DNA from: Nitrospira sp. | GTDB taxonomy: Bacteria > Nitrospirota > Nitrospiria > Nitrospirales > Nitrospiraceae | Direction of reading: 5' to 3' | DNA: 58,562 nucleotides | Assembly (NCBI GenBank): GCA_020853775.1 | Contig: JADYYH010000015.1 | Location: 1 to 58,562 of the forward strand | Part shown: positions 6,278-27,223 of the stretch, one piece after another | Position numbering within the stretch: position 1 is the first letter of the stretch | Layout of the letters: each line of letters opens with the position of its first letter | The notes under the pieces: model-generated | What the model was told of the DNA's origin: nothing | Seen by the model: the letters and a program-made list of their open reading frames with translations, nothing else | The model's database searches: none | Program-made: the position numbers and the translations under genes

Positions 6278-6784
6278 TTATTCCGTCCGGGGCTTATGCC
6301 CCACCGACGTCGGATGCCCGACCGATCCGTCAGGAGCCTTGGCGCCTTTCGGCCATAAATGAAATATAATGCCGTCCGTCTTAGCTGCCGCCGCAGCCAC
6401 TTCTTTCGCCTGCGCATCCGGCATGTCCAGTACTTGAACACGACCGGTGGCAATTTCGACCTCGTGATCATGATAGAATTTATTCCACACATCCAACGGA
6501 ACCGCCGATCGAGACACGGGTTTCGCCACGAAGTATTCCACATCGGTCAACACGGCATTCGGCGCAGTGGACTCGAACAGCAAACACTGCAAGACTTCGG
6601 GCTTGATGGCTTTGCAATAGTGATGGAAGGGACCGGCTACCGAGCCATCTTCCATCTTATGCGGGGCCATCACATGAATATCGAATCCGTCGGCCGGACC
6701 CGGCTTCATATCCGCGGCAAGTGCCGGCCCGCCCAAGGCGAGCGCGAGCGTGCTCGCACCAAGCACGCAAAGTTGTCGAAACAT
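6278..6784 (-). CDS. OBAP/DUF1264-family exported protein
   Basis: The second OBAP paralogue, about 168 residues. It has a cleavable signal peptide ending ALA-AD instead of a lipobox, so it should be soluble in the periplasm while its neighbour is lipid-anchored. The core is nearly the same: GPFHHYCKAI, FYHDHEVEIATG, VQVLDMPDAQAKEV and VGHKPRTE. The ATG at 6784 is preceded by AGGAGG, whereas the longer frame to 6817 has no such site. The gap to the lipoprotein gene is 53 bases. A tandem duplication with changed localisation is the simplest reading. Confidence 0.88.
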   Translation of the reverse strand: MFRQLCVLGASTLALALGGPALAADMKPGPADGFDIHVMAPHKMEDGSVAGPFHHYCKAIKPEVLQCLLFESTAPNAVLTDVEYFVAKPVSRSAVPLDVWNKFYHDHEVEIATGRVQVLDMPDAQAKEVAAAAAKTDGIIFHLWPKGAKAPDGSVGHPTSVGHKPRTE

Positions 6785-6895
6785 AGAAGGCCTCCTCTGG
6801 TTGGGGTTGGAATGCATGGAAGTGTCGTATCGACAAACCTCTCCCTTGTGTCTCTCTGCCCGTAAGAGTCACCGTTGTCCGAAAGGATTCGCGAT

Positions 6896-23715: not shown

Positions 23716-23889
23716 GCTGTCCCCCTGTAGAAAGAGCGAAAGTCTAACAGGAAGCAATTTTCACCCGCAACCTCTACCGGACGAATCCCCCTTCATCGTC
23801 CACGCTGCCGTTCGGCCGAACGCGCCGACGCGAGCTCTGGCCCCGGACCTTCCTTGACAGGCCTGTTGGGCGGAGTGTACCAAGACAGG

Positions 23890-24465
23890 ATGAGATCGGT
23901 GCCTGCGCTTGGGTGTCTCCTCGTTCTTCTCTCCGGCTCCCTCGCCTGGGCCGAAGACCTTCCCCTGACCCGCAATGTCCCGGTCCCCGATTTTCAAAAC
24001 CGGACCGAGAGCGCCAAACCCTACAATTTCGACGCCCCTCCGGAAGGGATGTTTCGTCGCATCGTGCTCGCCGAGGGGTTCGATGAAGAGATGGGCTTTC
24101 AACGGACCCATGAAATTGTTCCCGTCAAGCCGACCGACCAATTCTCGGCCGCCGGCAAACCTATTTTCATCGTGTTTGAGCTGCACCAGCACTACCAATC
24201 CTTTCAATTATTCGGGCGGTGCTATCCCGAGGAGGTATCCGGGCTGGATGGACGAACGATAGTGGCTGAAGATGCCATGTACATCGCGTTGGAAGATCAA
24301 ACCGGCTATCTGAAGTTATTCCCCCCGGACAGCAGCTGGAAACCAGGACGCTATAAGGTGGAAATCCATGCCGGTGAACAGATCAACGACATGAGCCTGA
24401 TGGGCACGATGCGTTTCACGATTCTCGCCGCCGCTGAATCGGACATCCCTACCAGGAGCCGGTGA
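23890..24465 (+). CDS. Exported protein of unknown function
   Basis: About 191 residues with a signal peptide (VPALGCLLVLLSGSLAWA, cleavage before ED). The mature part is beta-rich with no known motif; aromatic segments such as FELHQHYQSFQLFGRCYP and GRYKVEIHAGEQIND suggest an Ig-like or lipocalin-sized sandwich. The start at 23890 is set by the signal peptide and a weak AGACAGG. It lies 123 bases ahead of the TSUP permease gene on the same strand and may be co-transcribed. I do not recognise a family. Confidence 0.72.
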   Translation: MRSVPALGCLLVLLSGSLAWAEDLPLTRNVPVPDFQNRTESAKPYNFDAPPEGMFRRIVLAEGFDEEMGFQRTHEIVPVKPTDQFSAAGKPIFIVFELHQHYQSFQLFGRCYPEEVSGLDGRTIVAEDAMYIALEDQTGYLKLFPPDSSWKPGRYKVEIHAGEQINDMSLMGTMRFTILAAAESDIPTRSR

Positions 24466-24588
24466 CCAACCCCGCACGCTTCAGACCGATTGACGACCGC
24501 TCCAGCGCCGGGCTATACCGGTCTGCCGCCGCAAAGGCTGAGCATTGGGCCGTTCGAGCGCAGTCGGGTCGAAAGGAGCGTTGTCGCC

Positions 24589-25320
24589 ATGCAATGGGAT
24601 ATTCTCGCCACCATCCTCCTCACGGCCACCATTCAGTCGCTCTTCGGTGTGGGCGTGTTGCTCTTCGGCACCCCGATCCTTCTCATGCTGGGCTATGACT
24701 TCATCACCGCGCTGACGATTCTGCTTCCGATCTCGCTGACGATCAACCTGCTGCAAGTGAGCAAGGACTATCGGTCCATTCACTGGCCGCTCTATCGGCA
24801 GATCCTGACGTTGTCCATCCCCTGCGTGGTGCTCTGTCTGTTGTTCGTCACGACGTTCAAGCTGAACATCGGCAGCATTGTCGGCCTGTTCCTGATCGTC
24901 GCGGCGCTCAAGAGCGTCTATGGGCCCTTCAACCGATTGATCGAATCGCTGGTGCGATACGAGCGCACGTATTTCACCGTGATGGGCATCGTCCACGGCC
25001 TGACCAATCTGGGGGGCTCGCTGTTGACGGCCATGATCCACAGCAAACCGTACGACAAGGATCAGACCCGCGCGACCACGGCGGTCTCCTATGGCACCTT
25101 CGCGCTGTTTCAGCTCATGACGCTGAGCATGTCCCTGGGACCTTCGGCCATTGTCACGTCCATCACGGCACTGTATATGGCCGTAGGGGTGAGCATGTTC
25201 CTGGCGACCGAGCTCTTGCTCTATAGCAAGATGAGCACGGAACGATACCGCACCACGTTCGCCGCCTTTCTCTTTCTGTCCGGCACGGCCTTGATCTTCA
25301 AATCTCTCTTCCTTCGCTGA
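24589..25320 (+). CDS. TSUP-family (TauE/SafE-like) membrane permease
   Basis: A 243-residue integral membrane protein with about seven or eight hydrophobic helices. The opening (ATIQSLFGVGVLLFGTPILLMLGYDF) and the mid-protein repeat (GIVHGLTNLGGSLLTAMI) are the two halves of the TSUP/TauE-SafE fold, which exports sulfite, sulfonates or related small anions. AAAGGAG lies ten bases before ATG 24589; the frame is open to 24490, but that part is not membrane-like. The substrate cannot be deduced. Confidence 0.87.
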   Translation: MQWDILATILLTATIQSLFGVGVLLFGTPILLMLGYDFITALTILLPISLTINLLQVSKDYRSIHWPLYRQILTLSIPCVVLCLLFVTTFKLNIGSIVGLFLIVAALKSVYGPFNRLIESLVRYERTYFTVMGIVHGLTNLGGSLLTAMIHSKPYDKDQTRATTAVSYGTFALFQLMTLSMSLGPSAIVTSITALYMAVGVSMFLATELLLYSKMSTERYRTTFAAFLFLSGTALIFKSLFLR

Positions 25321-25497: not shown

Positions 25498-25528
25498 AAC
25501 TCCTACCAGCGCCCACGCGGTAGGAGTT
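25498..25528 (+). promoter_or_regulatory. Hairpin covering the ribosome binding site of the ABC gene
   Basis: AACTCCTACC (25498-25507) and GGTAGGAGTT (25519-25528) form a perfect 10-bp stem with an 11-base loop. The right arm contains AGGAG (25522-25526), the ribosome binding site of the GTG start at 25532. When folded, the stem would hide that site. No T-run follows, so it is not a terminator. It may lower or regulate translation of the downstream gene. Confidence 0.7.
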
Positions 25529-25531
25529 GCT

Positions 25532-27223
25532 GTGACCCAGTCCCCCACGACCACCCAGAGCTACCCCCAGTATCAGCTCACTGAAGTCCTCCGCGATATT
25601 TTCGCCCACCTCGGCATGTTGCTGAAACTGGAGCGATCGATCCTGGGCATTATCGCTACGTATGCGGTAGCCATTGGATTCTTCCTGCTCTGTGTTCCTA
25701 TTGCTGTCCAGGAACTCGTCAGCACGTTCTCCTTTTCGATGGAACCTCGCATGATCTTTACACTGGCGCTGTTCGTCGCCAGTTCCTTGACCGGGGTCGC
25801 GGCCTTTCGGGTGCTGCAGGCGCGCGCCGTGGAGACGCTACAACAACGGATCTACACGCGCGTTGCCATCGCCTTCACTCGCCTTCTGCCTCAGCTCCGC
25901 GATGATACGTTTGCCACGCCGCAAGCCCACCGGTTCATGGAAGCCGATCTCCTGACGCGCGCCCTGGTCGCAATGGTGGCGGATCTCTTTAATGTCGCTG
26001 TAGTCGGCACCATTGGGATGACCATGCTCATCCTCTTTCATCCCTACTTCGTGCTCTACATTTTGGTGCTGATCCTCGGGTTTGTGGGGTTGCTTACCCT
26101 CTTCGGACGCGGAGGGTTTTTCATCACACTGGAGATGTCCCGGCTGCATTACGAGATATTCGGCTGGATTCAAAATATCGCGCAGAATCTTCCGCACCTG
26201 CGGGCAGCCGGGGAGAGCCCGTACCTCTTGGACCGAACCGACACGCTGACTCGCATCTATGCCCGAATCCGGCAACGTCGTTCGGATACGCTCACCGGCC
26301 GGCAATACAAAGCGGCGGCGCTCTGGCAAGTTGCCGGGCACAGCGGGCTCCTCATTACGGCGGGTCTCTTGGTCGTCGATGGACAACTGACGGTCGGGCA
26401 GTTTGCCGCCGCCGAGGTGCTGGTCGGCAACCTGCTGCTGAATATGGACACCTTAGCTCGACGCATGGTCGCCATGTTTTTTACCTTCGTGTCCTGCCGG
26501 GAAATGGCCGCCGTGTTCTCGCTGCCGACCGAAGACGACGGCGCGAAGGAAGACGTGCCGGCGACACAGTTCGGCGGCTCTGGCATTCGCCTGACGTGCC
26601 GGAACCTTTCCTACAGCTGGCAGGATGGCCTGCCGATATTTCGGAACGTGTCCCTGGAGGTGGCTCCGGGAGAGAGAGTCGCCATCCTGTGCAGCACCAA
26701 CAGAGCCAAGACCGCCCTCGCGAAAGTCCTGGCCGGTCTTCACCCGCCCTCGGCCGGATTTGTCCGCTATAACGACATGAACCTGGCCGAGGTGAGGCGC
26801 GACTCCGTCAGCCGGGTGCGCGGCCTCATCCTGGATTCGCATCCCACACTGCTCGACGGGACGCTGGAAGACAACATCACGCTGGGCCGACCGTCGATCG
26901 AGTACCAGGATCTTCAATGGGCGCTGCGGTTTGTGGAGCTCGACCACGACATTGATGCGATGCCGCAGGGCCTCAATACCCTTGTCTCCGGTGGCGAGAC
27001 CCACCTCTCGATGAGTCAGATTCTCCGCCTTCTCGTCGCCCGCGCGATAGTGACTCGCCCGCAACTCTTAATTTTCGACGGGACCCTCCACAATATGCTG
27101 CCTGCGACAAGAGCCCTGCTGCTTCGCCGGCTCTGCGCGAAAGACGAGCCCTGGTCGGTGATCTTCGTCTCGAACGATCCGACCTTCTCGACTCATGTCG
27201 ATCGGCAGATCATCATTGAATAA
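25532..27223 (+). CDS. ABC exporter-like protein with degraded ATPase motifs
   Basis: A 563-residue half-transporter: an N-terminal membrane domain of about six helices (residues 35-320) fused to an ABC domain (350-563). The fold is clear from VSLEVAPGERVAIL and GTLEDNITLG, but catalytic motifs are lost. Walker A is CSTNRAKT (387-394) with all three glycines replaced. The signature is LSMSQ (492-496) instead of LSGGQ. Walker B ends FDG (515-517) without the catalytic Glu. The H-loop His is Asn548, and the Q-loop Gln is absent. The frame is intact, so this looks like a pseudo-ATPase, not a decayed gene. Start is GTG 25532 with AGGAG inside a hairpin. Substrate unknown. Confidence 0.85.
   Translation: MTQSPTTTQSYPQYQLTEVLRDIFAHLGMLLKLERSILGIIATYAVAIGFFLLCVPIAVQELVSTFSFSMEPRMIFTLALFVASSLTGVAAFRVLQARAVETLQQRIYTRVAIAFTRLLPQLRDDTFATPQAHRFMEADLLTRALVAMVADLFNVAVVGTIGMTMLILFHPYFVLYILVLILGFVGLLTLFGRGGFFITLEMSRLHYEIFGWIQNIAQNLPHLRAAGESPYLLDRTDTLTRIYARIRQRRSDTLTGRQYKAAALWQVAGHSGLLITAGLLVVDGQLTVGQFAAAEVLVGNLLLNMDTLARRMVAMFFTFVSCREMAAVFSLPTEDDGAKEDVPATQFGGSGIRLTCRNLSYSWQDGLPIFRNVSLEVAPGERVAILCSTNRAKTALAKVLAGLHPPSAGFVRYNDMNLAEVRRDSVSRVRGLILDSHPTLLDGTLEDNITLGRPSIEYQDLQWALRFVELDHDIDAMPQGLNTLVSGGETHLSMSQILRLLVARAIVTRPQLLIFDGTLHNMLPATRALLLRRLCAKDEPWSVIFVSNDPTFSTHVDRQIIIE

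Follow-up and report, generated by a model that had tools for sequence, protein, structure and literature searches.

ABC proteins are defined by the coupling of ATP hydrolysis to transport. The ABC subunits of E. coli HlyB-type type I secretion systems (8dck/7sgr) have the same full-length exporter fold as the protein described here, and paralogues of its gene share an operon with HlyD and TolC-type genes, as HlyB-type subunits do. It differs from them in that none of Walker A, the Q-loop, the LSGGQ signature, the Walker B Glu and the H-loop is intact, and in being encoded outside any HlyD/TolC operon. The inner-membrane transporters of tripartite systems are described as energised in the available part of a review (PMC8277102). 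Loss of catalytic residues from a maintained exporter half is also found in TM287/288, TmrAB, BmrCD and TAP, but these keep one active site, as do the exporters treated in the accessible part of a review of degenerate sites (PMC7756269); in the pseudo-ABC family described here every core copy is degenerate, single-copy forms included. HlyD/OEP machinery that lacks a working ABC ATPase has been reported, from Nitrospirae too, in the accessible part of Kamneva 2015 (PMC4452313), as a type-I-like module with SecA_DEAD and M50 proteins and no ABC homologue. However, no SecA is named beside the pseudo-ABC gene in annotated plasmid loci, and energising of the SecA type was rejected; this check was made by name in the annotated plasmid loci, with the flanks of ten distant loci available as ORF lists only. 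An M50 gene lies some distance downstream in one annotated plasmid locus (L278). Fluoride riboswitch regulons (the crcB motif) resemble the present locus in their aptamer, conserved core, ON-type platform and ion-transporter companions. The available part of Weinberg 2010 (PMC2864571) places the crcB motif before mutS, K+ or Cl- transport and formate hydrogen lyase genes, and a degenerate ABC exporter is not among the genes named there.

The window, a stretch of 58,562 nucleotides from a Nitrospira genome, contains a gene that we interpret, with a probability of roughly 60%, as encoding a fluoride-induced pseudo-ATPase ABC protein from a secretion-like family whose ATPase had already been lost. 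The strongest pointer to its function is the fluoride riboswitch upstream, which was absent from the initial annotation. The features discussed below are collected in Table 1.

Table 1. Features of the pseudo-ABC locus (positions in the window) and positions of membrane-domain-only relatives (in their own loci).
Feature	Position	Strand	Basis and remarks
203-aa protein, family unassigned	23854..24465	+	No Pfam match; near the gene in 21/23 A/A-like full-flank loci
276-aa protein, upstream of the riboswitch	24490..25320	+	No Pfam/NCBIfam match; not constant across loci
Fluoride riboswitch aptamer, crcB RNA motif, RF01734	25439..25512	+	cmscan 54 bits, gathering score 34
Putative expression platform, perfect inverted repeat CTCCTACC / GGTAGGAG	25500..25526	+	Sequence and folding
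Shine-Dalgarno AGGAG	25522..25526	+	Within the hairpin; from sequence
Pseudo-ATPase ABC half-exporter ORF	25532..27223	+	563 aa, GTG start, frame intact
Exporter-type helical membrane domain spanning roughly residues 16-330	25577..26521	+	AlphaFold2 model
Degenerate nucleotide-binding domain, residues 350-563	26579..27220	+	PF00005 at residues 371-516
Walker A remnant CSTNRAKT, residues 387-394	26690..26713	+	Motif table
Q-loop position, Asp435 replacing Gln	26834..26836	+	Motif table
Signature remnant LSMSQ (for LSGGQ), L492 to Q496	27005..27019	+	Motif table
Walker B remnant ending D516-G517; Asp kept, Glu to Gly	27065..27082	+	Motif table
H-loop position, Asn548 replacing His	27173..27175	+	Motif table
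Membrane-domain-only relatives beside OEP and HlyD genes	L068 6707-7744; L069 4444-5454; L266 6352-7362

The initial annotation had described an unbroken frame of 563 residues, and the ORF is indeed intact. The sole Pfam match of its product is PF00005, which its ATPase domain still matches with 44.6 bits against a cut-off of 25; a Pfam scan gave no sequence match to the known fluoride exporters CrcB/Fluc and CLC-F. An AlphaFold2 model built with 43 sequences (pLDDT 80.5, pTM 0.71) has as its top Foldseek match HlyB in the HlyB/D complex (8dck_A, TM 0.87). In a structure comparison with VIA, BmrCD, TmrAB and HlyB were tied at Z 28.9, with an rmsd of 2.5 over 533 residues for 8dck_A. As modelled, the protein is a full-length HlyB-fold ABC half-exporter with membrane and nucleotide-binding domains.

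The replacements reported earlier in Walker A, the Q-loop, the signature, the Walker B Glu and the H-loop hold residue by residue. The glycine positions of Walker A are occupied by C387, N390 and A392, with K393 and T394 retained. Judged by these motifs, the window protein is predicted to lack every residue set that normal ATP hydrolysis requires. Seven other ABC open frames, taken as controls from the window genome and from Nitrococcus, were checked by pattern: those for Walker A, LSGG[Q/E] and Walker B were matched in six, and the seventh (L007) matched those for Walker A and LSGGQ only; the Q-loop pattern was present in 5 of 7.

The same replacements were scored in 139 distinct core members from Nitrospirota and Nitrococcus, that is, 145 distinct sequences less one that is frameshifted and five that are distant. 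Every core member keeps at most 3 of 10 catalytic residues. The Walker B Glu is kept in 0/139 (Gly instead in 138), the H-loop His in 0/137 (Asn or Thr in 134), the Q-loop Gln in 0/139 (Asp instead in 130), and the first two Walker A glycines in none of the 139. The Lys, Asp and Ser singled out by the initial annotation as retained are present in the window protein, but their retention is a feature of its clade and not of the family: the Walker A Lys is found in 119, the Walker B Asp in 111 and the signature Ser in 53 of the 139 members. Intact close homologues were looked for and none was found. The loss is graded among distant relatives in methanotrophs, sphingomonads and Bacteroidota: in three, Walker A, LDEA and the H-loop His survive, whereas the Q-loop Gln and LSGGQ do not; many others keep Walker A alone, and some keep nothing. 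Degeneracy extends to eight relatives carried on named plasmids (Novosphingobium, Sphingomonas, Croceicoccus, Persicobacter, Aureibacter and Riemerella). The least degenerate relatives, L196, L201 and L203, lack the Q-loop Gln and LSGGQ, and in the tree they are well separated from the window family.

Family members occur in 41 of 61 relatives at E 1e-40 and in 77 of 295 genomes of the phylum, belonging to two families of one order, at E 1e-30. A scan of named genomes gave at least 80 loci in Nitrospira, other Nitrospirota, Nitrococcus mobilis Nb-231 and a gammaproteobacterial MAG; among the loci listed in that scan is one whose record bears the label uncultured Nitrosospira. By profile search, members were detected in at least 6 of the 369 genomes from the Nitrococcus class, at least 3 of 54 from its order and at least 11 of 398 from the phylum, and in at least 77 of 201 genomes of another gammaproteobacterial order; these counts are lower bounds because few candidates were scored per genome. 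PF02461 (AMO/pMMO family) was found in 14 of 20 tested genomes of the latter order, which suggests that the order is largely methanotrophic; we take it to be Methylococcales. In a tree rooted on five intact exporters the least degenerate clade branches first (support 71) and the Nitrospirota and Nitrococcus sequences form a single clade (support 100). A literature text search, which did not extend to fluoride combined with ABC, found no paper on the pseudo-ABC family.

The loci fall into an operon type, a D type and the window type (A and A-like loci). Counts by type refer to loci whose flanks reach 5 kb or more in both directions, leaving out 37 of the 139 members, which lie on shorter flanks. 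HlyD and OEP (TolC-type) genes lie within 5 kb in all 73 operon-type loci, in 0 of 23 window-type loci and in 0 of 6 D-type loci. The window gene is likewise not beside HlyD and TolC-family partners, so by its gene setting the product does not classify as the ABC subunit of a type I secretion system. In the tree, operon-type and D-type members surround the A clade, which implies that the A gene left the operon. The 203-aa protein encoded at 23854 was considered as a dedicated partner and rejected, because 42 of 46 genomes carry a homologue and some of these have no A gene. An anti-phage defence role was also rejected, with 0 PADLOC matches among 6 proteins. Among operon-type loci, L188, L189 and L195 are variants with three OEP genes, one pseudo-ABC gene and one HlyD gene. 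A small membrane-like protein of about 150-163 aa is encoded beside ABC-like, HlyD and TolC genes in methanotrophs (L227 5048-5503, L229 9245-9700 and L239 10596-11084).

In three genomes of one genus (G056, G058 and G1320) the product is only 337-346 aa long and shows no trace of the ATPase part. At one of these membrane-only loci (G1320; L266) HlyD is split into two ORFs, and dN/dS in the membrane-only relatives is 0.23-0.28, indicating weaker selection; taken together, these two features suggest that the membrane-only relatives may be relaxing. They support, but do not prove, the pseudo-ATPase reading.

The riboswitch match to RF01734 has an E-value between 1.1e-14 and 3.2e-12, varying with the length searched. 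The 5' arm of the inverted repeat is part of the 3' strand of the aptamer and its 3' arm carries the ribosome-binding site. This exact inverted-repeat pattern occurs at one place in the genome and in none of 100 shuffles of the window. The aptamer ends in ACUCCUAC, its last conserved strand, which could alternatively pair with GGUAGGAGU and so mask the ribosome-binding site held there; such alternative pairing for RF01734 was found by sequence and folding. Fluoride stabilises the crcB-motif aptamer, so the competing pairings suggest a translational ON switch, in which fluoride would stabilise the aptamer, free the ribosome-binding site and turn translation on. The platform in the window, as read from its sequence, fits such a fluoride ON switch.

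This arrangement is conserved with the gene. When the upstream regions of 20 A genes were folded, each formed a hairpin that covers the ribosome-binding site, and a riboswitch precedes 21 of 21 A-type copies examined (all 20 A loci and the second A copy of another genome, in L044). Five of six A-like loci also have it (L120, L131, L184, L193 and L192, in the last of these at the head of the gene run); it was not found at the sixth, L136, where the upstream flank is short. None of 3 D-type and 9 operon-type loci examined has the riboswitch. A general fluoride-aptamer pattern was found in 55 of 281 loci examined, and no hit fell outside the A and A-like loci and their copies. The riboswitch could serve downstream glycosyltransferase genes too. 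At L184 a second copy of the hairpin is followed by a run of T and resembles a terminator version, and L117 has a second fluoride-aptamer pattern (6738-6795) about 4.4 kb downstream of the A gene on the same contig.

Through their gene order, two related loci connect the pseudo-ABC protein with fluoride stress. At L044 the pseudo-ABC gene stands behind the riboswitch, with two Na+/H+ exchangers (PF00999) and Usp (universal stress protein) after it, and a 147-aa protein and a dynamin-family GTPase stand behind a second riboswitch. L192 has two riboswitches, and the genes behind them encode a small protein, a dynamin-family GTPase, an AAA protein, a Na+/H+ exchanger, Usp and the pseudo-ABC protein. 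The 147-aa protein, which has no Pfam match, and the dynamin-family GTPase stand behind riboswitches in both loci (L044 1587-4050 and L192 491-2993) and are possible new members of the fluoride regulon.

We infer from the riboswitch a role for the window protein in fluoride tolerance; on the sequence evidence it probably helps the cell to cope with fluoride, and not as an ordinary ATP-driven pump. Going by homology, model and motif tables, the induced product would be a membrane half-exporter of HlyB fold that lacks the residue sets for normal ATP hydrolysis. Its dimer may act in fluoride tolerance with no hydrolysis of ATP; the likeliest role would be that of a membrane conduit, or of a scaffold or regulator for the Na+/H+ exchangers of the same regulon. 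The tree and the operons show its ancestor to be the inner-membrane subunit of an HlyD/TolC system that resembles type I secretion and had already lost its ATPase; the gene left the HlyD/TolC operon either before it acquired fluoride control or in the course of acquiring it. Put more generally, and as a tentative and rather doubtful proposal, HlyD/TolC-type systems with a non-hydrolysing ABC subunit would exist in several phyla, and in Nitrospira one such subunit would have come under riboswitch control and serve ATP-independent fluoride resistance, as a conduit or as a partner of Na+/H+ exchangers. Metal-fluoride mimics of phosphate freeze working ABC ATPases. A dead ATPase could not be trapped by them, and this may be what makes such a subunit suitable under fluoride stress; trapping cannot explain the loss itself, since the ATPase was lost before fluoride control arose. 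A conserved exporter family with relatives in Nitrospirota, Pseudomonadota and Bacteroidota, whose core members have no working site and of which one lineage has its ATPase domain deleted, would reveal the capabilities of an exporter membrane domain on its own. Because of the fluoride switch one member lends itself to direct testing: the inducer is known, the aptamer can be probed and laboratory hosts sensitive to fluoride are available. The window protein is an added candidate for the short list of fluoride-resistance proteins, in hosts that are nitrite oxidisers relevant to wastewater and drinking water.

Because the A clade keeps both K393 and D516, its members may bind ATP without hydrolysing it. 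The protein might then be a nucleotide-gated receptor, a sensor or gate that signals to partners; we consider this unlikely. The sister D clade lends it some weight, since in every one of its 6 full-flank loci the gene adjoins those for a PAS histidine kinase and an NtrC-type regulator, and the one D-locus kinase examined has two membrane helices with only a short connecting loop, like kinases that listen to an ABC partner. Such a kinase presumably parallels BceS of BceAB-BceS sensing, and the pairing of an ABC-fold protein with a short-loop kinase is what the D clade has in common with that system; the likeness is one of arrangement, and the window gene is arranged otherwise. The kinase pair lies within 5 kb in only 2 of 23 A and A-like full-flank loci, all three Walker A glycines are lost, and the D-type loci lack the fluoride riboswitch (0/3), all of which argues against a receptor in the window. 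In the D-type loci L050, L051, L052, L053 and L182 the pseudo-ABC gene directly precedes the kinase and regulator genes. The D-type arrangement of pseudo-ABC, kinase and regulator is a possible signalling module.

The window protein could also act in trans as a subunit of an HlyD/TolC system, exchanging with the operon copies B and C and modifying the envelope conduit under fluoride. The material for this is at hand: its closest paralogues are of the type encoded with HlyD and OEP in 73/73 full loci, the window genome itself has an HlyD/OEP operon on contig C35, and the genome tables list operon-type copies in genomes with an A gene. The A gene is, however, away from HlyD/OEP in 23/23 full loci, and we regard such an exchange as distinctly improbable.

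The initial annotation had suggested half of a heterodimer whose other half is active. Heterodimers with one degenerate site are an established principle, as the accessible part of the degenerate-site review sets out (PMC7756269), and intact exporters are present in the genome, so that ATPase-competent ABC halves do occur elsewhere in it. A comparison of flanks among A loci showed no intact partner gene next to them. The closest paralogues, a tandem pair on C35 with 52 and 47% identity to the window protein, are equally degenerate in their catalytic motifs, and operon members are found as single copies in several lineages. A working site needs the signature and Walker residues of both partners, and LSGGQ is lost here too. 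Pairing with an active half thus finds no support and appears very unlikely.

Selection on the gene was estimated by pairwise Nei-Gojobori dN/dS, using only pairs with dS of 0.05-1 (for the whole gene in the A clade, 104 of 190 pairs). The median for 20 window-type genes is 0.084 overall, 0.042 for the membrane part and 0.121 for the ATPase part. The tandem paralogues have values of 0.085 and 0.045, and their HlyD and OEP neighbours 0.051 and 0.047. The ATPase domain is still constrained, far from a ratio of 1, which implies that it does something. The ATPase part is the better conserved one in canonical exporter pairs. Several pairs of the pseudo-ABC family reverse this order (for example 0.69 vs 0.49), but the window gene and its Nitrospira paralogues do not (0.51 vs 0.57). 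The pseudo-ATPase is therefore maintained, as first proposed, with dN/dS of 0.084, shared substitutions that recur across the 139 members and no close homologue with intact motifs. Gene decay or assembly error, to which the many lost motifs and the faster evolution of the ATPase part might point, can be set aside as an explanation, because the identical losses recur in 139 homologues at this low dN/dS and the riboswitch and hairpin are conserved together with the gene. One tandem copy at L191 (5382-7478) is frameshifted and two draft-genome copies (G010, C270 and C1022) contain TAG; these look like defects of single genomes.
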